From positions 1 through 64,000 of the forward strand of contig NZ_JACHWP010000004.1 of assembly GCF_014191425.1 (NCBI RefSeq): a DNA stretch of 64,000 bases, read 5' to 3'. Every line of letters starts with the position of its first letter. The first letter of the stretch is position 1. This DNA comes from Helcobacillus massiliensis (GTDB lineage Bacteria > Actinomycetota > Actinomycetes > Actinomycetales > Dermabacteraceae). Position numbers and translations under genes: made by a program. This document shows positions 12,626 to 59,720 of this stretch, one piece after another. The notes below the pieces were generated by a model, which ran no database searches, had not been told where the DNA came from, and saw only the letters and a list, made by a program, of their open reading frames with translations.

Positions 12626-12961
12626 GGTGACGGGCCCAGCCTGAGCGCGGGTGCGGGGCGTCGGTGGTCGTGCAAAGGGCGCGAGATGCTGCGGGCGGGT
12701 GCAGCGCCGTACAAAAGTTGGAGCAGATTGCCCGTTCGGCCGCGAAAATGGCCGGATCGGTGGAATTTTGGTCGGAAAGTGCACGCCGCGGCTCGATGGG
12801 CTCGGTCGTGTTGGGCCTGGCCGAACAAGAACCGCGACAGAATCGGCCGTTCGGGCAGTCAGATGCCACTGAGAGGCGGTTTCGTCGCGGAATCTGTCCG
12901 TGAGGCGTGCTGGGTGCTGCAGCTCCGGCGCGGGAACGGCAGAGCCGTTCGGCGTGGAAAC
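12626..12961. other. Non-coding stretch containing a 76-base repeat-like element
   Basis: No credible gene. 12709-12784 spans 76 bases and ends with GGTCGGAAAGTGCAC (12770-12784). That 15-mer forms both arms of the inverted repeat at 59443-59518, which is also 76 bases long. Read on the minus strand, the first 20 bases differ from the left end of the 59443 element at one position. It lies just before the tRNA-Ser terminator. Confidence 0.6.
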
Positions 12962-49935: not shown

Positions 49936-51368
49936 CCGACCCCATCGCCCGCGTCACACCCCACCACACCACCGGTGAGGTGCTGTCCGCCGTCTGGATG
50001 GGGGTGCTCGCCGCAGCCGTCGGCCTCGGTGTGTGGATCGGTGCGCTCACATCGCTCAGCCCGCAGCTGCGGGCCGGGCTCCTCCCGCACGCAGACCCGC
50101 TCACCGTCCTCGTGGTCGCAGTGACGGCACTGATGGTCGCGCTGATCCTCGCGGTGACCGGCGAGCTTGGGCCCTTCTCCGCATCGGCAGCGGAACTGAT
50201 GCTGACCGGTGGGCCCCGACGGCGCGCCGCCACCCTCGGCATCCTCGCCGGCGTCCTGCTCATGCTCAGTGCGGCTCTCGCGTCCGGTCTCATCACCGCG
50301 CTCGGGCCCCTGCTGCCGGGGCCGCTGCTGCCCGCGATCACCGGCATCCTCGCGACCGCATCTCTGCTGGTGCCGCCGCTGTTGGCCCGAGCCCAGCGCA
50401 GCCGGCTCCTCCCCGCCGTCCGCACACTGCCCGCCGCGCTCGTGGCCGGCGCTGTCACACTGCTGGTCGCCTTCCGCTTCTCCGGCACCGTCGGCGCATC
50501 GCTCATCACCGCCGCCGGGGTTGCCGCGATCGTGCTCGCGGGCGCGGTTGTGCGGTCCCGGGCGCGGGCCGGTTCTTTCGAGCTGATTCCGCGGTGGGAA
50601 CTGCTGCGGGCCGACGGGATCGTCACCGCGGCCGGGTCCGCTGCCGTGTCGATGGATGTCGGTGCGGTGCGGACGCACGGTGAGCTGACCCGCCCGGCCG
50701 CGCGCCGACGGGCCCTCGCGCCGGGGACGATGCGCCGTCTGCACCCGTCGGCGCGGCTGTTCGTGACCGTGCTCGCCCGCGCTGTCCGACGCACTGCCGC
50801 CACCAGTGGGATCGCAGTTCTGGTCGCCATCAGCGCCACCGCGTTCACACCGGCCGCGGGCACGCTCGCGATCGGGGCGGTGGCGGCCCTGCTGACCGCG
50901 CTGAGCCTCGCCTCGATCCTCGGTGATCTGGTGGTGTCGGTGCCGCTGCGGTCCGTGTTCGCTGCGGCTGCGCCCGGGGCGGCCTGGCTGACGCTCGCGG
51001 GACTCGCGGTGACGGCCCTAATGCCGTTCGCCGCAGCTGCCGTGGTGCACCTGGTGCAGGGCGGGCAGCCGTGGCCGGTGCTGGTGTTCGCCGCGGTTGC
51101 GGCCGCGGCGGTGACGCACGGCCTGGTGGGGCCGACGCGGGCGCTGTCCGACCAGGTCAACGGTGTGCTCACCACGATCAGCTCGCCCGAGCTGGGGCCG
51201 GTGCCGATCTACCTGATCCAGCGGGTCACCGCGGGCTGGGTGGCGCCGCTGGCACTGCTCGGTGCGGCGCTGCTCGGGCTGGACGCCGTGGCGCTGATCG
51301 CCGGGGCCATCGCCGCGGTGATCGCCCTGACCCTGTTCGCGGACGTGCTGACGAAGAACCAGCACTGA
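49932..51368 (+). CDS. ABC transporter membrane subunit of unknown substrate
   Basis: 478 residues and about twelve hydrophobic segments, with no ATPase domain. It starts in the ATGA overlap with the ATP-binding gene. It resembles actinobacterial DUF6297-type permeases in size and arrangement, but I cannot confirm that family by eye. A soluble stretch around residues 215-275 (FELIPRWELLRADGIVTAAG) separates two hydrophobic halves. One ACCCGTCGGC copy (50743-50752) lies in this loop. Confidence 0.75.
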   Translation: MTDPIARVTPHHTTGEVLSAVWMGVLAAAVGLGVWIGALTSLSPQLRAGLLPHADPLTVLVVAVTALMVALILAVTGELGPFSASAAELMLTGGPRRRAATLGILAGVLLMLSAALASGLITALGPLLPGPLLPAITGILATASLLVPPLLARAQRSRLLPAVRTLPAALVAGAVTLLVAFRFSGTVGASLITAAGVAAIVLAGAVVRSRARAGSFELIPRWELLRADGIVTAAGSAAVSMDVGAVRTHGELTRPAARRRALAPGTMRRLHPSARLFVTVLARAVRRTAATSGIAVLVAISATAFTPAAGTLAIGAVAALLTALSLASILGDLVVSVPLRSVFAAAAPGAAWLTLAGLAVTALMPFAAAAVVHLVQGGQPWPVLVFAAVAAAAVTHGLVGPTRALSDQVNGVLTTISSPELGPVPIYLIQRVTAGWVAPLALLGAALLGLDAVALIAGAIAAVIALTLFADVLTKNQH

Positions 51369-51388
51369 CCGCACACCGCCGCCTCGCC

Positions 51389-51444
51389 GTTGCATGCGTC
51401 TTCGCGCGCATTCCGGCGATCAAGAGCGCTGAAACGCTTCCAAC
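51389..51444. repeat. Palindromic intergenic repeat, copy B
   Basis: Imperfect inverted repeat (GTTGCATGCGT at the left, GCGCTGAAACGCTTCCAAC at the right) sharing the core and loop of copy A at 49212, same orientation. It lies between convergent genes and may also act as a bidirectional terminator. Confidence 0.75.
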
Positions 51445-51486
51445 CGGGGTCGGTATTGGGGCCCGATGGCGCAGGTCGAGCCGACC

Positions 51487-52815
51487 TCACCAACCGGCGT
51501 AAGGAGCGATGTCGGCGTCGCTCACCGCCCCCTCAGCGACATCGTCCAGCGCCTGCGCGAGCAGTTCCATGCCGCGAACACACTCGCCCCGTGAGATAGT
51601 CAGCGGCGGTGTGAGCTCGAGGGCACCATCACCGACGGGATAGACGACGAGTCCAAGCTCAAATGCGCGAAACGCCGCCTTTGCGGAGGTCGTCAGAGCA
51701 TCATCGGTGCCGTTTGGCAACAGTTGGAGGCCCTGCATCAATCCTCGGCCCCGGACCTCGTCGATGAGCCGTGCACCTGGGCGGTCGCTGGCGCGCAGTT
51801 GATTGATCAGGGCGGTCAGTACTTCACCCATCGCGGCTGCGTTGTCGATGATCGAGCCGTCGTCCAGTTCATCCAGGACCACCAACCCGGCGGCACATGA
51901 TGCACCGTTACCGGTGGTGGTCATCAACGCGGAAGCCGCGGGTTCATCAAGAACAGATGCGGGCCCGACCACCGCTGACAACGGGAGGCCGGCGCCGAGA
52001 GCTTTGCCGAGCGTCACCACATCAGGCTGGACACCGTTGTGCTCGATGGCCAACAGGCGGCCAGTCCGCCCAAGACCGGCTTTGACCTCGTCACACACTA
52101 GGAGCGTTCCAGTTTCTGTGCACATCTGCCGAAGTGCGGGCAGGAACTCAGGGTGCGGCATGATGATTCCACCATCGGATTGGATCGGCTCCACGATCAC
52201 TGCGGCGATGGTCTGGGTCTGCAGATGGCGCCTAATCTGATCGATGTGCGTGCGTGCCTCCGAGTCGGTGAGCGCGGCCGACGGGTACGTCAGAAGCACA
52301 GAATCGGCAGCGGCATCGGCTCCGCCGGATTCGACATGTACGCCTGAGACCCCTTGTGCAAGGCCGAGTCCGCCGTGATAGCCGTTGGAAAAGGCGATCA
52401 CCCCTTGGCGCCCGGTCGCACGGCGGCACCCCCGCAGTGCGACATCATTCGCGTCTGTCCCTGCATGCCCAAGGTAGACGCGTCGGTCTGGCTTTCCAGG
52501 AATCATCTGCAGCAGTCGCTCCGCGAGGAGCACTGCACGTTCGTGTGTGGCGGACAGGATGGAGGCGCTGCACCCGCTGGCCAGCGCATCTCTGACCGCA
52601 TCGGCGACCGCCGCGTTTCCGTGCCCCAGGCCGACAGCTGTCCACGCGGCAGAGAAATCAAGAAGCGTGCGCCCGTCAGCGTCGGTGACCTCACTGCCGT
52701 TTCCGCCGGCAATCGTCAAGGGGAAGAAGCGCAGCTTCTCAACTCCCGCGATGACATCGGCGTCACGTGCGGCCAGGTCTCCTGCCGCGGAGCCGTTGTG
52801 TGCAGTCGTCGTCAT
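51487..52815 (-). CDS. Class III (fold I) PLP-dependent aminotransferase
   Basis: 442 residues from ATG 52815 with GAGGAG upstream. Fold-type I class III features: FSNGYHGGLGLAQG, IVEPIQSDGGIIMPHPEFL, LLVCDEVKAGLGRTGRLLA, and TLGKALGAGLPLSAVVG with the likely PLP-binding Lys. Such enzymes transaminate omega-amino acids or amines (GABA, diamines, beta-amino acids). The motif CDEVK replaces the common FDEIQ. It is the last gene of a tightly packed five-gene operon and overlaps the M20 hydrolase gene by 4 bases. It probably produces an oxo-acid or semialdehyde from a released amine or amino acid. The substrate is unknown. Confidence 0.88.
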   Translation of the reverse strand: MTTTAHNGSAAGDLAARDADVIAGVEKLRFFPLTIAGGNGSEVTDADGRTLLDFSAAWTAVGLGHGNAAVADAVRDALASGCSASILSATHERAVLLAERLLQMIPGKPDRRVYLGHAGTDANDVALRGCRRATGRQGVIAFSNGYHGGLGLAQGVSGVHVESGGADAAADSVLLTYPSAALTDSEARTHIDQIRRHLQTQTIAAVIVEPIQSDGGIIMPHPEFLPALRQMCTETGTLLVCDEVKAGLGRTGRLLAIEHNGVQPDVVTLGKALGAGLPLSAVVGPASVLDEPAASALMTTTGNGASCAAGLVVLDELDDGSIIDNAAAMGEVLTALINQLRASDRPGARLIDEVRGRGLMQGLQLLPNGTDDALTTSAKAAFRAFELGLVVYPVGDGALELTPPLTISRGECVRGMELLAQALDDVAEGAVSDADIAPYAGW

Positions 52816-54056
52816 CTGTTGATCTCCTCGTCCACCTGCTCGTTCAGAATGCGCTCGGCGCCAGCGAGATAACCGGCCAGCATGGCATGAGCGACGTCTT
52901 TGATCGCCCTCTCCGTGGGGAGAAATCGAGGATCGTGCAGCGACGGCGCGGGAGAGCACCCCTCGACTTCCACCCCGACGAAGGTCATCAGAGACGGCAT
53001 CACTGAGCAGAAGTAGGAGAAGTCGTCAGCACCGAGTGACCGCATCGGCTCCGCAATGTCATGACCCATCGCTCCCAACCAGGCTTCGGCCCCTTCTGCG
53101 AGCTCCTTATGGTTTGTCAGGACCGGTTCACCAGAATCACGGCTGATATCCGCCGATAGTCCATAGGCGGCAGCGGTGCCTTCGGCCATCTGCCGGACGG
53201 CTTCGAACAGGTCGATGCGCTGCTCGTTCGACGTGGTGCGCATTGTGGCGCGCAGGTACGCCTCTGAGGGAAGAACGTTAGCCGCGCTGTCGCCAGCGCG
53301 GAGAGTGCCTACGCTCAGAAGAGCTGGCGACATCGGATCAACAGTTCTGCGGACAGCTTCTGGCAGTCCGATCGCGAGCTGGGCGATCGCGGTCACCGGG
53401 TCGGCCGCGGTGTGAGGGTAGGCGCCGTGCCCGCCACGACCCCTGAGGACGATGTTGATCTCATCTGCGGCTGCGTTGATGTAACCCGCGCCCACCGCGA
53501 TGGTGCCCGCCGGAACTCCTGGGTGAACGTGAGCAGCGATCATGTGGGTGACATTGATCTTCTCCAGAGCTTTTTCTTCGACGATGTCCAATGCACCAGA
53601 AGGATATGTCTCCTCTCTCGGCTGCAGGACAGCACCGATCGCGACGGGCAGATCCACCTGCGCTGCAGCACGGATGAGTGCGACAAGGGCGGCTTGATGA
53701 ACGTCATGGCCGCATGCATGCATGGCGCCGTTGCTGGCAGCGAATTCGACGCCGGTGCTTTCGTGGACCGGGAGCGCATCGAGCTCAGCGCGGATTCCGA
53801 CCGCGGGGCCGTCAGGGCCGATCCGGCCTATCGCTCCAGCGGATGCGACTTCGTCGAATTGGAGGATCCCCGCGAGCTCCGAAACGAGGATGTCGCGAGT
53901 GTCGTATTCCATGCCGGAAATGCGGGGGTCGGAATGGATGCGCCGGCGCAGGGCAGCTGCGTCAGAGAGCTGTTCGTCCAGACGGGAACGTAACTCGCCA
54001 GCGATCCTGGTGAGCGTGGTTCGTGTCGAATCGGCGGGGCTGTCTGTCGAGGTCAA
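52812..54056 (-). CDS. M20 family amidohydrolase
   Basis: About 414 residues. M20D metal-binding motifs: MHACGHDVHQAALVAL, QPREETYPSGA, AAHVHPGVPAGTIAV, GRGGHGAYPHTAADPV and GADDFSYF. Related enzymes hydrolyse N-acyl amino acids or gamma-glutamyl/indole-acetyl amides. The start is uncertain: TTG at 54056 overlaps the upstream stop codon in TTGA and is preceded by GGAG, which fits translational coupling. A longer frame to 54203 would lie inside the neighbour. In this operon it is a candidate to remove an acyl or glutamyl group from an amine intermediate. Confidence 0.85.
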   Translation of the reverse strand: MTSTDSPADSTRTTLTRIAGELRSRLDEQLSDAAALRRRIHSDPRISGMEYDTRDILVSELAGILQFDEVASAGAIGRIGPDGPAVGIRAELDALPVHESTGVEFAASNGAMHACGHDVHQAALVALIRAAAQVDLPVAIGAVLQPREETYPSGALDIVEEKALEKINVTHMIAAHVHPGVPAGTIAVGAGYINAAADEINIVLRGRGGHGAYPHTAADPVTAIAQLAIGLPEAVRRTVDPMSPALLSVGTLRAGDSAANVLPSEAYLRATMRTTSNEQRIDLFEAVRQMAEGTAAAYGLSADISRDSGEPVLTNHKELAEGAEAWLGAMGHDIAEPMRSLGADDFSYFCSVMPSLMTFVGVEVEGCSPAPSLHDPRFLPTERAIKDVAHAMLAGYLAGAERILNEQVDEEINR

Positions 54057-55285
54057 TCCGATGCTCCGTGAGTTGAGGGGGTCGAGGGGTGGGCTGTTGA
54101 GGATGGGAGCGTCGCGCTTGGGAGCTGATCGAGCCTGTAAACGCGACGGGCGTTGTCCCGTGAGATCATCTGGGCCACTCTTTGCTGTTCGGCGATCGGC
54201 CACTGATCTCGGCGTGCCCAGTCGTCGAGTGCCTCAGCCAGCCCGCGGCGGAACAGGAGCGCGCCGAGGTGATACAACTCCGCTGCTCCCCAGGCATCCG
54301 ACGAGAACAGCGCCTTGTGGAACGGAGTGAGCTCCAATGATTCGGCGATGATCTGTGCGGATTGGGAACCGGTGTAATTGATGGCCAGGCCGACGTCGCA
54401 ATACACGTGTTCAAAGCAGTGGGCCAGGTAGCCGGCTTCTCGATGAAATGGGTAGCAGTGCAGAAGCAGAATGTCCGAACCGGACCCGCGGGTGGCGCGC
54501 AGCAGGTCGGTGAGCAGCAGAGGGTTGCAGCGATGAAGATCCACATCGGGGTCGCCGTACCCAACGTGGAACTGGATCGGTACAGCACGATCAATCGCGC
54601 TCCAAATCAGGTGTCGGATGATGACAGGGTCCTCGAGGCGAATCGACCCGGGGTAATTGCTGATTCGATCGATCCATGCGCCAACGGCGCGTGCAACGTC
54701 AGCATGGGTGGGACGCGATGGGTCGAAGTCCAACCCGGTCCGATATGCAGCGATCGTCTTCGCTCCAACCGCTGTGCGCAGGCGTTCGTCCAAGACTCGC
54801 GCATACTCGTCGACGAACCCGCTGGGATGCACACCGGCTTCGACCAGCTCTTCGGCGAGCACCTCCAGGCGAACAACCTCGGCGTAGCCCGCGTTCGCTG
54901 TCGCGCCCATGTGTGCTGGACCGAGGATCTCGTCCCCTCGGTGGCCGGTCTCGATCAACAGGGTCTCGAATCCGGACGGGCGCAGCAGCCGTCGACCAAC
55001 TTCGTCGGCAGACAGAGCGGACCGCGCCTCAATGTATTCGTCGGGTGAGCAGAAGGGTTCAGCGTCGAGCAGTGGCGCGCAGTGGCGACGGATGGCGAAC
55101 CCAAGCTGGGTGTCGAACATGGTTGTTCCCCGCGGCGCGTGGCCGTCCGACTCTGTGATCAGGTCCTCGAACCGACTGCGGTTCGCTGGTGTAGCAAGGA
55201 TTCCGTGGCAGTGATGGTCGACTAGAGGGATCGAGCCGATCCATTCGGAGGCGGACGTCCTGTGCCTCAGCGCAGAGGGTGTCAT
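54053..55285 (-). CDS. FluG-type amidohydrolase
   Basis: 410 residues, start ATG 55285 with AAAGGAG upstream. Amidohydrolase-2 features: PLVDHHCHGIL (HxH metal site), PIQFHVGYGDPDVDL, DILLLHCYPFHREAGYLA, VYCDVGLAINYTG and FSSDAWGAAELYHLGAL with the final Asp. This is the domain fused to a glutamine-synthetase domain in fungal FluG and plant NodGS proteins. Here the two are adjacent separate genes 78 bases apart, supporting a shared function. The reaction is unknown. Confidence 0.82.
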   Translation of the reverse strand: MTPSALRHRTSASEWIGSIPLVDHHCHGILATPANRSRFEDLITESDGHAPRGTTMFDTQLGFAIRRHCAPLLDAEPFCSPDEYIEARSALSADEVGRRLLRPSGFETLLIETGHRGDEILGPAHMGATANAGYAEVVRLEVLAEELVEAGVHPSGFVDEYARVLDERLRTAVGAKTIAAYRTGLDFDPSRPTHADVARAVGAWIDRISNYPGSIRLEDPVIIRHLIWSAIDRAVPIQFHVGYGDPDVDLHRCNPLLLTDLLRATRGSGSDILLLHCYPFHREAGYLAHCFEHVYCDVGLAINYTGSQSAQIIAESLELTPFHKALFSSDAWGAAELYHLGALLFRRGLAEALDDWARRDQWPIAEQQRVAQMISRDNARRVYRLDQLPSATLPSSTAHPSTPSTHGASD

Positions 55286-55363
55286 GGAGAACGCTCCTTT
55301 CAGATGGTTGGGATACGGGGCGACCACCGGAGGAGAAGCCGTGCCACCGCCAGTTGTGTGGAG

Positions 55364-56731
55364 TCAGAAGATTTCGGCGTACCGCTTGCAGCGCTCTTCC
55401 ATAGACGTGTCCTTGAACGTCTCGATCTCATGCTCCTTGATCGCCAGGTACGACTGCACGAGTTCCGGGGTGAACCATGATGACACCTCGCTATCGGCCT
55501 GGAACGCAGCGAGTGCCTCCGGCAGATCTTCAGGCAGCTGCGGCAGATCCTTGTGCTCCCCTTCGAGGTCCAGATCTCCCTGCACGACCTGTGCGGGATC
55601 CATGTCCTCACGCAGACCAGCGATTCCTGCGCGGAGGATCGACCCGAGCAACAGGTAGGGGTTGGCGCCGATATCGCCGCCTCGGAATTCGAAGTGCAGC
55701 TGGGGCGCGGGGTCCCGGCCTTCCATTTCATTCGTGGGCGTGATGCGCAGCAGCGCTTCGCGGTTCTGCAGCCCCATGAACGCCCGAGCCGTGGACCAGT
55801 TATCCGGGCGGAGCCGCTCACCGGAGATCACCAGGGGCGCGAAGATGGCAGTCATGCCGGGTGCATGGTGAAGGATTCCTGCCGCGAACTTGGCGGCTTT
55901 TTCCGACACGCGGCCGGGGCGGGAGGGGTCGTAGACAACCGGGTCGCCATCGAGCGTGGTGAGACCGAAGTGCACGTGAACCCCGGAGCCGCCTGCACCT
56001 GCTTTAGGCAGAGGGGAGAAGGTGACATCGCGGTGGTGGCCGGCAAAAACGGCACCAACGGTGTCTCGGACGAGCACGGCACGATCAGCTGCAGAGACCG
56101 CATCCGTTGGGCGGACGGTCACTTCGAACTGATGGGGGGCGTACTCCGGCAGCCAGTTCTCCGGTTCCGCACCCATTTTGTCGAGCGCGTTCATGATCTG
56201 AGAACCGATGGGTTCGAGTGATCGGTGCGCGGCGAGGGAGAACGGATGGGTGGGGGAATCATCCCCCAGGTCCGTGAATTCGTGCTCGAACGCGGCGGTG
56301 ACGGTCAACCCGAATTCGTCCTCGAGCATCTTCACCGTGTCACGCAGGAACGTGCGGGAGTCTCCGGCCCACGGCGATCCGTCAGTTTCAACGATGTCGG
56401 TGAAGACGAGGGTGTGAGGCTCCTGGCCGGGGATGTCGGTGATCCGGACGGCTGAGGCGTAGTCGGGACGAAGGCGGCAGTCGCCAGTAGAACCGTAGGG
56501 CAGTCCGTGGACGATCTCGCCGAGGGGCCCGATGCCGAGGTTGGCCGGTACCCATCCCACGGACGATGTCTCATCGAAGTCTTCGGCTCTGACAGCGCGC
56601 CCCTTGGTGATGCCGGATAGGTCGCTGACAGCGAGGAATACGAGTTCGCCGGGGCGGGGGCGCACCTCGGGGGCGAGTGCTCCACCGGGGGTGTTCAGAC
56701 CGTCGGCCGGGGTGTGGTGTGCGGGGTTCAT
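55364..56731 (-). CDS. Glutamine synthetase-like gamma-glutamyl ligase
   Basis: 455 residues. GS fold: N-terminal beta-grasp (VFLAVSDLSGITKGRAV), FEHEF metal ligands, AGAGGSGVHVHFGL, RPDNWSTARAFMGLQNREA and FRGGDIGANPYLLLGSIL. The Asn-Gly-Ser ATP loop and adenylylation-site Tyr region of housekeeping GlnA are not recognisable. This places it among GS-like enzymes that glutamylate amines (PuuA, IpuC, GlnA3/4 types). AGGAGG precedes the ATG, which overlaps the permease stop (56728-56731). Likely role: ATP-dependent capping of an imported amine with glutamate. Confidence 0.88.
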   Translation of the reverse strand: MNPAHHTPADGLNTPGGALAPEVRPRPGELVFLAVSDLSGITKGRAVRAEDFDETSSVGWVPANLGIGPLGEIVHGLPYGSTGDCRLRPDYASAVRITDIPGQEPHTLVFTDIVETDGSPWAGDSRTFLRDTVKMLEDEFGLTVTAAFEHEFTDLGDDSPTHPFSLAAHRSLEPIGSQIMNALDKMGAEPENWLPEYAPHQFEVTVRPTDAVSAADRAVLVRDTVGAVFAGHHRDVTFSPLPKAGAGGSGVHVHFGLTTLDGDPVVYDPSRPGRVSEKAAKFAAGILHHAPGMTAIFAPLVISGERLRPDNWSTARAFMGLQNREALLRITPTNEMEGRDPAPQLHFEFRGGDIGANPYLLLGSILRAGIAGLREDMDPAQVVQGDLDLEGEHKDLPQLPEDLPEALAAFQADSEVSSWFTPELVQSYLAIKEHEIETFKDTSMEERCKRYAEIF

Positions 56732-58239
56732 TCGAGATCCTCCTGGGTGAGGCGCTCACCGATGCGATCAGCGAGACGCGGCTGGGCGATGACAATGATG
56801 AGGCCGAAGAGGCACCAGGCACCGGCGATCCAAGGGAACCATGTGTATGGGGCCTCTTGGCCGATGATCTGAACCGCGTAGACCCACACAAGGAATGCGA
56901 GGCCAAGTACGGGGACGATGACCTCCCATGCGGGGATGCGAGTTCCTGAGGTGATGGCGTACTTGATGATGCCGACCGACGTCATGGCATATGCAACAAC
57001 CATGCACAGAGTGGCGATGGTGGCGTACCAGTAGTAGACATCCACCGCGGTGGCTCCGATGGCTGCAAGTGCGGCCGCGAGGACGACGGTGAGGACGACG
57101 ACGGACAGCACGGCGATCGTGGGGACCCCGGTCCGGGCGTTTGTGCGGGCGAATACGGTGGGCCCGAAGCCGTCACGGGCGAGAGCGAACAGCAGCCTTG
57201 AGGCCGCAGCGGTGGATGACAGCAGCGATGCGAATGCAACGAAGAAAGCGATGACGCTGATGAGGACGGCGTACCACGAGCCGATGTAGGTCGCGGAGAG
57301 CTCAGTGAGCGTGGAGGCTGCGCCGGAGAACTTCTCGATTCCGGTTGCATCAGTGCCATAGCCGATTGTCTGGGCGAACATGACGAACGTGTAGATCGCA
57401 CCGGCGATCACCACAGCCAGCAGTAGGGCCTTGGGCACGGTTCGTTTGGGGTCGTTCGTCTCTTCTGCGAGCGAGGTGCCGGACTCAAAGCCCGCCCAGG
57501 ACAGAAAGCCGAATACGGACGCTGTCATGACCGCGGTGAGGGAAGCACTTCCGGGCAACAAGGTGGACAGATCGACGCCGGTTGTGACCGGAGCACTTCC
57601 GGAACCGACACGCGTCACAATCACCACGGAGAGAATGAGCATTGCAATGATGCCGACGAACCCGATAGCCAACAGTGTGCGGGCAGTCACTGCGGATTCG
57701 CGGATGTTGAGCAGTGCCACGAACACCGCGACGATGATCGGGACGACGATCCAGGTTCCGGCAGGAAGATGCAGGCCGAGCTCGGACAGCATGGCCTCGA
57801 AGAAAACCGCACATGCGCCGGCGATGCAGGCGGCGAAGAACAGGTATGTGCCGAGCAGGGCGAAGCCGCCGAAGAACCCAGCACGTGGTCCAAGGGTGAC
57901 TCCTGCGAGTGCGTACACGGAGCCGGCATGGGTGACGTAGCGAGTGAGCCGAATGAATGCATAGGCGACGAGCAGTGTTCCGATGAAGGACACCACGAAC
58001 GTGAAGGGGACACCTTTGCCCACAAGACCCGAGACTCCGATTCCGTTGAGGCTCATAGCCATGACCGGCCCCATGAAGCCGATGGAGATGGCGGAGACCT
58101 CGAGCGGAGAGAGCTTTCGGCGTGTGGAGAGTTGGCCTTCCTTGCCTGTTTCTGACGTCTGGGGACTTACCGATGATGCATGAGGCGCAGTTGTTCGGGT
58201 TGTTGGACGCTCTCGGTGAGCGCTGACGGATTCGGACAT
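56728..58239 (-). CDS. APC family amino acid/amine permease
   Basis: 503 residues and about twelve membrane helices after a 40-residue hydrophilic N-terminus. APC features: KLSPLEVSAISIGFMGPVMAM, AGSVYALAGVTLGPRAGFFGG, GFLSWAGFESGTSLAEETNDPKRTVPKALL. The closest type is the amino acid/polyamine/ethanolamine permeases. It is the first gene of the five-gene operon and is divergent from the RpiR regulator. GGAAAGG lies 10 bases before the ATG. It is the presumed importer for the pathway substrate. Confidence 0.9.
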   Translation of the reverse strand: MSESVSAHRERPTTRTTAPHASSVSPQTSETGKEGQLSTRRKLSPLEVSAISIGFMGPVMAMSLNGIGVSGLVGKGVPFTFVVSFIGTLLVAYAFIRLTRYVTHAGSVYALAGVTLGPRAGFFGGFALLGTYLFFAACIAGACAVFFEAMLSELGLHLPAGTWIVVPIIVAVFVALLNIRESAVTARTLLAIGFVGIIAMLILSVVIVTRVGSGSAPVTTGVDLSTLLPGSASLTAVMTASVFGFLSWAGFESGTSLAEETNDPKRTVPKALLLAVVIAGAIYTFVMFAQTIGYGTDATGIEKFSGAASTLTELSATYIGSWYAVLISVIAFFVAFASLLSSTAAASRLLFALARDGFGPTVFARTNARTGVPTIAVLSVVVLTVVLAAALAAIGATAVDVYYWYATIATLCMVVAYAMTSVGIIKYAITSGTRIPAWEVIVPVLGLAFLVWVYAVQIIGQEAPYTWFPWIAGAWCLFGLIIVIAQPRLADRIGERLTQEDLE

Positions 58240-58306
58240 GGTGAGGGCCTTTCCGATGGACGGCGGGGGCGATGACTGCCCTGCCGATGGGGTCCGCGTT
58301 CGTGAG

Positions 58307-58322
58307 TGTAATGCAGGTTACA
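58307..58322. promoter_or_regulatory. Candidate operator for the RpiR-type regulator
   Basis: TGTAA-TGCAGG-TTACA inverted repeat in the divergent region between the permease and regulator genes. A second AT-rich palindrome GAATATTTC lies at about 58355-58363. Confidence 0.4.
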
Positions 58323-58438
58323 TAAAGTGCCGGACGATGGCTAGTGGTGTCATGAATATTTCGGAGTCTGGTCGGCGGGGATGCGGGGACGGGACCGGTA
58401 CCCTCGAAGGCACGTTGTGCAGGCAGGAGGAGAAGCGA

Positions 58439-59332
58439 ATGGGCGCAAGTGACGGCGCTATGACGGGTGCCAGCGAGGACGGCGCCGCCGGAAGCAGCAC
58501 CCGTAGCGTTGCTGAACATATCCGGAGCGTGATGCCGGATCTGACGCCGTCAGAGCGCAGCATCGCTCGCGCGCTGCTTGCCGCGTACCCAACGTTGGGG
58601 TTGGACACGGTGGCGAGTTTGGCAGCTCACGCGAAGGTGTCCGCTCCGACAGTGGTCCGCTTTGCTCGTCACCTCGGCTTCGACGGTTTTCGCAGTTTGC
58701 AGCGCGCGTTGCGCGAGGAATTGGCAGTGAAGAACCAGTCCAACCTCTCGCAGGCTGAAGCTCGAGGGGGCGAGCGGACCACTTTTGACCATGCGCGAGA
58801 TGCCTACTTGACGGGCATAACCAGCACCTTTGCGGACAATGATCCGGCTGAGCTCGAAGCCGTTGTTGGCCTGTTGGCGGACGAGGGACGGCCCCTGCTC
58901 GCCGTGGGGGGTGCGTATTCAGGTGCGGTGACACGAACGCTGATTGCCCAATTGGCGCCAGTGCGGAGGAACGCTCGGGTGCTGGAGCCTCATGTGATTC
59001 TGTCGTCAACGGAGATGGCGGACGCTGCTGATCGGGGAGTCCTCGTCGTTGCGGATGTTCGTCGTTACGACCCTGAACTTGCCAAGCTTGCCGAGGCGGC
59101 CCATGGACAAGGGATCACGGTGGTTCTCCTGACGGATCCGTGGTTGTCGCCGATCTCCGCTTTTGCAGAGCGGCTGTTGACGGCGTCAGTAAAGGCTGCT
59201 GGGCCTTCCGATACCTTGGTGCCGATGTTGGCACTGGTAGAAGGCGTCTGTGAGCTGGTGGTGGAGGCGCGCGGAAAGTATGGCCTGGAACGTCTGCAGA
59301 GGGTTGAACAGCTCCGCTCCCATCTCGCGTGA
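58439..59332 (+). CDS. MurR/RpiR family transcriptional regulator
   Basis: 297 residues from ATG 58439 with AGGAGGAG upstream. The N-terminal helix-turn-helix domain has LTPSERSIARALLAAYPTLG and VASLAAHAKVSAPTVVRFAR, followed by FRSLQRALREEL. The C-terminal SIS-type domain (about residues 150-285) would normally bind a sugar phosphate, but here regulates an amine or amino-acid-type operon. It is divergent from the permease gene and is the likely local regulator. Confidence 0.88.
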   Translation: MGASDGAMTGASEDGAAGSSTRSVAEHIRSVMPDLTPSERSIARALLAAYPTLGLDTVASLAAHAKVSAPTVVRFARHLGFDGFRSLQRALREELAVKNQSNLSQAEARGGERTTFDHARDAYLTGITSTFADNDPAELEAVVGLLADEGRPLLAVGGAYSGAVTRTLIAQLAPVRRNARVLEPHVILSSTEMADAADRGVLVVADVRRYDPELAKLAEAAHGQGITVVLLTDPWLSPISAFAERLLTASVKAAGPSDTLVPMLALVEGVCELVVEARGKYGLERLQRVEQLRSHLA

Positions 59333-59442
59333 CCTCCCCACGCCCCGCGCTGATCCCGGCCCCGTGGGGTCCTCTTTTCGTTCCGGCCCCCTCCTTCCTG
59401 ACCTTGCCCTGGGCGGGTCACGGTGCCCGGGCCACGGACCGT

Positions 59443-59518
59443 GTGCACTTTCCGACCATAATCGCCCTCCAACGCGCTGAATCCCGCGCTGCAGGGGTTT
59501 TTCGGTCGGAAAGTGCAC
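59443..59518. repeat. 76-base inverted-repeat element
   Basis: GTGCACTTTCCGACC (59443-59457) and GGTCGGAAAGTGCAC (59504-59518) are perfect 15-bp arms around a 46-base centre. A related 76-base segment lies at 12709-12784. Confidence 0.8.
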
Positions 59519-59563
59519 GGCCGCTCTTCTCTCGCCAGCTTCGCGCCTCTCGCCCGCCCCTTC

Positions 59564-59671
59564 GGCCGGGACGGGAGGGCAGGAACCGGGCACCCCCTGG
59601 GCCGGGACGGGAGGGCAGGAACCGGGCATCCCCTGGGCCGGGACGGGAGGGCAGGAACCGGGCATCCCCTG
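59564..59671. repeat. 36-base tandem repeat, three copies plus a partial fourth
   Basis: Units at 59564-59599, 59600-59635 and 59636-59671, each starting GGCCGGGACGGG, differing at one position in the first copy (CACC for CATC). A fourth starts at 59672 and breaks off. Confidence 0.9.
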
Positions 59672-59720
59672 GGCCGGGGGCGCGGGCGCGGACGACCCTG
59701 GCATGCGGAATACTGTTGGC

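Follow-up and report, generated by a model that had tools for sequence, protein, structure and literature searches.

A gene cluster of Helcobacillus massiliensis as a candidate gamma-glutamylation operon with a probable racemase of the alpha-amino-epsilon-caprolactam type

The stretch of DNA analysed here, the window, comprises positions 1 to 64,000 of contig NZ_JACHWP010000004.1 of Helcobacillus massiliensis, and between its positions 51487 and 59332 lie five minus-strand genes, read as a single operon, together with a divergent regulator gene. In their order on the minus strand, the five encode an APC-family permease, a glutamine-synthetase-like (GS-like) ligase, a FluG-type amidohydrolase (AMD), an M20 amidohydrolase and a class III pyridoxal phosphate (PLP) enzyme. 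An earlier note on this DNA had described the cluster as a gamma-glutamylation-type catabolic operon that includes a transamination; the gene set and the signature of the ligase support the first of these claims, and the PLP enzyme is probably a racemase of the kind that acts on alpha-amino-epsilon-caprolactam (ACL). Tentatively, and judging from the predicted proteins, the operon may well serve the gamma-glutamylation-type breakdown of alpha-amino compounds, either D or L, whose carboxyl is masked as an amide, lactam or (thio)ester.

The class III PLP enzyme (positions 51487 to 52815, minus strand, 442 amino acids; PF00202) is of a type that usually carries the label aminotransferase in annotation. 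Its closest solved relatives are the ACL racemases 2zuk and 3dxw (319 bits) and the amino acid amide racemase 6gio (300 bits), compared with 209 bits for the best gamma-aminobutyric acid (GABA) transaminase, while the top four chains (5m46, 5m49, 5m4d and 5m4b; 320-324 bits) are labelled only 'Aminotransferase class-III' and are taken by us to be an ACL racemase. The identity to 2zuk, an enzyme of class EC 5.1.1.15, is 43% over the aligned part, with the same residues at the compared sites and the same C-terminal AGW. E. coli GabT and PuuE carry R141, E211 and R398; these are replaced by G, D and E in the window enzyme, which has W at GabT I50. In each of the 24 aligned sequences (the window enzyme and those of 23 loci), GabT columns 50, 141, 211, 268 and 398 hold W, G or C, D, K and E, both arginines, R141 and R398, being missing in the window enzyme and in its 23 operon relatives. 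Moreover, DEVK is found in 13/13 operon sequences compared, as against DEVQ in GabT and PuuE; this second comparison left out two own-genome loci (L115 and L116) and a Roseomonas locus (L124), whose class III enzyme is of a different type when read in frame. Two deposited variants, 5m4b and 5m4d, have Ala in place of an Asp and a Lys, respectively, and the window enzyme retains both of these residues; the arginines that it lacks presumably bind dicarboxylates, the roles of the mutated Asp and Lys being likewise assumed by us. The GABA transaminase model TIGR00700 gives 218 bits with a cut-off of 507, and none of the three class III relatives of this model in the own genome exceeds the cut-off.

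Transamination by this enzyme is thus unlikely, because the transaminase arginines are absent and the ACL-racemase residues are present in the window enzyme and its relatives, and the transamination step of the earlier note is not upheld. The 'aspartate aminotransferase family' annotations in these operons are questioned in turn, since the genes are probably racemases. Known substrates of ACL racemase, as given in the accessible text of two papers, are amino amides, lactams, esters and homocysteine thiolactone (PMC7431475, PMC11391342), and the predicted racemase identity points to alpha-amino amides, lactams or esters over simple amines.

The GS-like ligase (positions 55364 to 56731, minus strand, 455 amino acids; PF00120) has its best solved relative in 4hpp, the bulky-amine gamma-glutamyl ligase PA5508 (PauA7), with 291 bits, the next scoring 125. 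Compared with E. coli GlnA, it keeps E129, E131, E212, E220, H269, R321, R339, E357 and R359, while V replaces D50 and W replaces E327, the latter a replacement that PA5508 shares. We take D50 and E327 to be the acids of the ammonium site and the kept residues to be those for metal, ATP and glutamate. Both acids are retained in two further GS-family proteins found in the genome, and those at the D50 and E327 positions are described, in the accessible part of one paper, as not conserved in gamma-glutamyl ligases (PMC6478659). With the GS fold and the metal and glutamate residues kept and the ammonium-site acids gone, the enzyme matches the gamma-glutamyl-amine ligases of the PuuA/PauA7 type, and it falls outside gamma-glutamylputrescine synthetase proper (NF045547; 237 bits with a cut-off of 650). 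Because both acids are lost, the ligase should join an amine to glutamate rather than form glutamine, so that an enzyme forming only glutamine, an outcome that the earlier note had raised against its own proposal, is unlikely.

The linkage of racemase and ligase recurs across genomes of different phyla. Among 396 genomes of the order, own genome included, the racemase was found in 6 (E<=1e-90, at most 4 candidates scored per genome) and AMD in 16 (E<=1e-60), the own genome being in both sets, and in 6/6 cases AMD is no more than 5 kb from the racemase gene, where independent placement would give about 0.001 such pairings by a rough hand estimate. Most actinobacterial loci came from the AMD query, with AMD present by construction, and the evidence that racemase and AMD go together comes from the separate racemase search. 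When the phylum was searched for the racemase at E<=1e-85, the own genome was the sole hit (1/396). Besides the window, AMD and M20 accompany the racemase in 7 of the 8 actinobacterial racemase loci, the remaining one (L103) having AMD and a class II amidotransferase-like protein; L004 and G218 are taken as one genome. Ten further genes near AMD in other actinobacteria were considered as pathway partners and set aside, being unrelated (YibE/F, Lgt, DNA polymerase IV type, oxidoreductase and carotenoid-type genes, among others) or unassigned, for which reason these neighbourhoods say little.

In a plasmid collection, the racemase query returned 80 records, of which 14 were examined: Klebsiella (2), Pluralibacter, Pantoea, Sinorhizobium (3), Ensifer (2), Shinella (2), Maritalea, Rhizobium and NT-25. 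All 14 hold genes for a GS-like ligase, an isochorismatase-like protein and a protein like N-formylglutamate amidohydrolase (FGase) within about 10 kb, the ligase and FGase-like genes of Shinella WSD5-1 (L128) lying across the origin of the record, and RpiR is present in 13, not being detected in L118. Three of these loci (L117, L120 and L134) have an identical score and are probably copies of a single locus. The operon on the Klebsiella and Pluralibacter plasmids lies near arsenic resistance genes (L117, L134), lactose genes (L120) and insertion sequences (L120, L134). The strongest single case for a racemase-ligase operon is a Shinella zoogloeoides locus (L125), with the order RpiR, isochorismatase-like, GS-like, FGase-like and ACL-racemase-like, in which the last protein shares 84% identity with 2zuk, an ACL racemase whose structure is solved, and a branched-chain-type ATP-binding cassette (ABC) importer is encoded on the other strand. 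Overall, isochorismatase-like and FGase-like genes occur in 15/15 proteobacterial racemase loci, and the ligase lies within about 10 kb of the racemase in 23 of 23 loci (8 actinobacterial, 14 plasmid and the S. zoogloeoides locus), 22 times in the fetched stretch and once across an origin. The earlier note had suggested a search for conserved co-occurrence, and similar gene sets are indeed found elsewhere.

Other loci have the ligase without the racemase. Six of them (L006, L008, L010, L013, L015 and L104) pair ligase and AMD, with M20 in four, L008 (on a contig of only 11 kb) and L010 having neither M20 nor racemase; in L024 the ligase and AMD are accompanied by a class II amidotransferase-like gene, and in L124, L126 and L127 the ligase comes with isochorismatase-like and FGase-like genes. 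The racemase thus seems to have been added to a broader gamma-glutamylation module. On the Deinococcus plasmids L129 and L130, a GS-like gene is followed by AMD, beside an Lrp-type regulator, and L129 additionally holds an acetamidase/formamidase gene and an APC permease.

For the two hydrolases of the window operon, the roles are proposals. AMD (positions 54053 to 55285, minus strand, 410 amino acids; PF04909) is related by sequence (5e-44) to 2qpx, the closest structure of the FluG N-terminal region, and an AlphaFold2 model built from 28 sequences (mean pLDDT 91.6) has 2qpx as its sole close fold (Z 44.2, rmsd 2.8, 365 residues aligned), followed by an amidohydrolase-2 protein (Z 26.0), uronate isomerases (20.7-24.3) and other TIM-barrel amidohydrolases, so that fold neighbours beyond 2qpx reveal no reaction. 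H25, H27, K176, H240, H276 and D330 are invariant in 28/28 relatives, which we take to be the pattern of metal-dependent amidohydrolases; NCBIfam holds no family for AMD. The M20 protein (positions 52812 to 54056, minus strand, 414 amino acids; PF01546 and PF07687, with motif positions in agreement) exceeds the TIGR01891 cut-off (236 bits versus 154) and has no relative in the plasmid collection at E<=1e-60. N-acyl amino acids are the usual substrate type of M20 enzymes, and gamma-glutamyl-amino acids belong to this class. For the proteobacterial counterparts, NCBIfam at E<=1e-20 gave no family for the S. zoogloeoides FGase-like protein, the L103 amidotransferase-like protein or one isochorismatase-like protein, and the FGase-like and isochorismatase-like names therefore rest on the annotation of the source records; the S. 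zoogloeoides isochorismatase-like protein scores 80 bits against biuret amidohydrolase, whose cut-off is 370. Unrelated enzymes seem to fill the same two hydrolase jobs in different phyla. With moderate confidence, M20 is put in the place of the deglutamylase and AMD in that of the amide opener, because the enzyme predicted to split gamma-glutamylglycine during ethanolamine use belongs to the FGase family, according to the accessible text of PMC9397018.

In the proposed route, the permease would import alpha-amino compounds with a masked carboxyl (amides, lactams or (thio)esters, D or L), and the ACL-racemase-type enzyme would interconvert their D and L forms before the carboxyl is unmasked. 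The GS-like ligase would then, with ATP, link the gamma-carboxyl of glutamate to the alpha-amine, AMD would open the amide, lactam or ester to yield a gamma-glutamyl-amino acid, and M20 would split the latter into glutamate and an L-amino acid, the operon being regulated by the putative RpiR protein. The substrate class, the order of the steps, the division of hydrolase labour and the signal of the regulator are those that we infer. The wider proposal, of a widespread, so far undescribed catabolic route that takes alpha-amino amides or lactams, whether D or L, through racemisation, gamma-glutamylation, hydrolysis and deglutamylation, is put forward with equal reserve, at somewhat less than an even chance.

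Several points weigh against it. The functions of the operon proteins are read from sequence and gene linkage, and class III genes may lie beside GS-like genes in other settings too, as puuE and puuA do in E. coli. The loci with ligase and AMD, or ligase and FGase-like genes, that lack the racemase indicate that part of the module works without it. We know of no natural substrate that explains how common the module is. The preference for bulky amines reported for PA5508 in the accessible part of PMC6478659 would neither prove nor rule out amino amides. Finally, the division between the hydrolases is ambiguous: SCO6961, an AMD protein adjoining GlnA3 in Streptomyces, is predicted to be a gamma-glutamyl hydrolase of a polyamine pathway, with M20 unmentioned in the accessible text (PMC5403932), and in Deinococcus L129 AMD and ligase adjoin the acetamidase/formamidase gene, both of which argue for AMD as the gamma-glutamyl hydrolase.

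The hydrolase roles may accordingly be reversed for the same substrates, with AMD as the gamma-glutamyl hydrolase and M20 opening another amide bond before or after glutamylation. Besides the prediction for SCO6961, this arrangement is favoured by loci that lack M20 yet have AMD adjoining the ligase (L008, L010, L103, L024), by the same neighbourhood in Deinococcus and by fungal FluG, which is an AMD-ligase fusion. The GlnA3-SCO6961 pair and FluG have a polyamine or a developmental role, and neither a racemase nor M20 is mentioned in the accessible text of PMC5403932 and PMC6478659; in the latter, a Lactobacillus homologue of the FluG-type amidohydrolase can replace the Aspergillus one, its activity being described as unknown. 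On the other hand, a class II amidotransferase-like protein takes the place of M20 in L103 and L024. That type presumably includes the gamma-glutamyl hydrolase EgtC, which we count, together with the usual substrate type of M20 enzymes, against the reversal, leaving it doubtful.

A Puu-like catabolism of amines, the logic proposed in the earlier note, would have a true aminotransferase act after glutamylation and deglutamylation, with the oxidation enzymes encoded elsewhere. The putrescine pathway of E. coli likewise brings together a permease, a GS-like ligase, a hydrolase and a class III PLP enzyme, with puuE and puuA in one operon, and the window's ligase is of the gamma-glutamyl-amine ligase type and its class III enzyme of the Aminotran_3 fold family. 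However, the oxidase PuuB, the dehydrogenase PuuC and a PuuD-type hydrolase are all absent from the window operon, the regulator is of a different type and the PLP enzyme is racemase-type, unlike that of the Puu pathway, with racemase residues in place and both transaminase arginines gone; the inspected proteobacterial racemase operons, moreover, pair ligase and racemase with two hydrolases instead. By Pfam, none of the five operon genes encodes an oxidase or aldehyde dehydrogenase, as the earlier note had said, the rest of the genome not having been searched for them, and this absence would be explained by a racemase-based route, since it needs no oxidation step. The Puu-like reading is thus improbable. 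The gamma-glutamyl ethanolamine pathway of GlnA4 also shares gamma-glutamylation and the predicted use of an FGase-family enzyme to split a gamma-glutamyl-amino acid at a later step, but it uses two dehydrogenases and, in the accessible text, no racemase (PMC9397018).

Slightly less probable still is detoxification, in which reactive alpha-amino (thio)lactones or aminoacyl esters would be trapped by gamma-glutamylation and then opened safely. The amidohydrolase superfamily presumably includes lactonases, and ACL racemase exchanges the alpha proton of homocysteine thiolactone, as stated in the accessible part of PMC11391342; yet the permease in the operon and the branched-chain-type ABC importers in the rhizobial versions suggest scavenging, and there is no evidence here for a reactive (thio)lactone or aminoacyl-ester substrate. 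Degradation of N-acyl-homoserine lactones was also considered, with nothing specific in its favour.

In the searched literature, whose coverage of subscription journals is thin, nothing was found that links ACL racemase with a GS-like enzyme or a gamma-glutamylation operon, which is weak evidence, and nothing on point concerns the operon's gene or hydrolase combination or its substrate; of the wider search, only the review PMC7431475 concerns these racemases. The earlier note's impression that pathway and substrate are undescribed agrees with the lack of a substrate assignment in this literature. ACL racemase and 6gio were studied as lone enzymes for amino acid production, whereas the window's enzyme sits in a gamma-glutamylation operon, and ACL racemase was long ago used for L-lysine production, according to the accessible text of PMC7431475. 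No account of a natural pathway for ACL racemase was found in the searched literature, and its linkage to a ligase and hydrolases makes a role testable. If the proposed route is true, this industrial enzyme gains a natural pathway, two steps of which are carried out by unrelated hydrolases in different phyla and copies of which lie on Klebsiella and rhizobial plasmids. The operon likewise offers a genetic context for the FluG-type amidohydrolase.

The remaining features of the locus fit the layout first described, open reading frames, strands and Pfam agreeing on five coupled genes with three 4-base overlaps and a divergent RpiR gene, and Pfam confirming the family of every operon gene and of the regulator. 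The APC-family permease, a probable importer (positions 56728 to 58239, minus strand, 503 amino acids; PF13520, PF00324), overlaps the ligase gene by ATGA, the TTG start of M20 overlaps the AMD stop by TTGA, and M20 overlaps the PLP enzyme gene by ATGA, while the ligase-AMD gap is 78 bases. The intergenic region between the divergent permease and regulator genes spans positions 58240 to 58438, and the RpiR/MurR-type regulator (positions 58439 to 59332, plus strand, 297 amino acids; HTH_6 and SIS) most likely starts at the ATG at 58439, since AGGAGG precedes it, and not at the longest-frame start at 58238. No match to a sigma-70-type promoter was found in 51300-59700.

The operon was likely gained horizontally, because its GC content at third codon positions (GC3) is atypical and AMD is missing from same-family genomes. 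In 400-base steps, GC is 60-67% across the operon and 67-76% beside it, and GC3 is 67-76% in six genes (operon and RpiR) versus 87-94% in the four flanking genes measured, in line with the weaker codon bias reported earlier. No AMD match was found in 35/35 same-family genomes searched, while the neighbouring methyltransferase gene (59703) has a match in 24/24 same-family genomes searched for that gene; the nearest AMD relatives, 63-67% identical, are in Brevibacterium celere, Agrococcus and genomes from other families. Loss in the relatives is the less likely explanation. Transfer, as first suggested, is therefore likely by these two lines of evidence, but the iterated 10-mer CCCGTCGGCC adds little to it. 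Its single copy in the operon stretch was counted again (the window has 36 and the whole 2.6 Mb genome 1,044), where 4.4 are expected by length from the window count and about 3.1 from the genome count, and the deficit is not significant (hand-calculated Poisson P about 0.07 and 0.18, respectively). Read backwards, the same letters have 20 genome copies against 1,044 forward, the forward word being strongly iterated in the genome.

An inverted repeat (59443-59518) closely follows the RpiR gene, where the low-GC stretch has its right edge; its two 34-base arms are 79% complementary, and a 15-base arm end has five genome copies, one other in the window at 12770. Additionally, a 36-base unit is repeated in tandem for 3.4 copies (59557-59678) between the operon and the methyltransferase gene.

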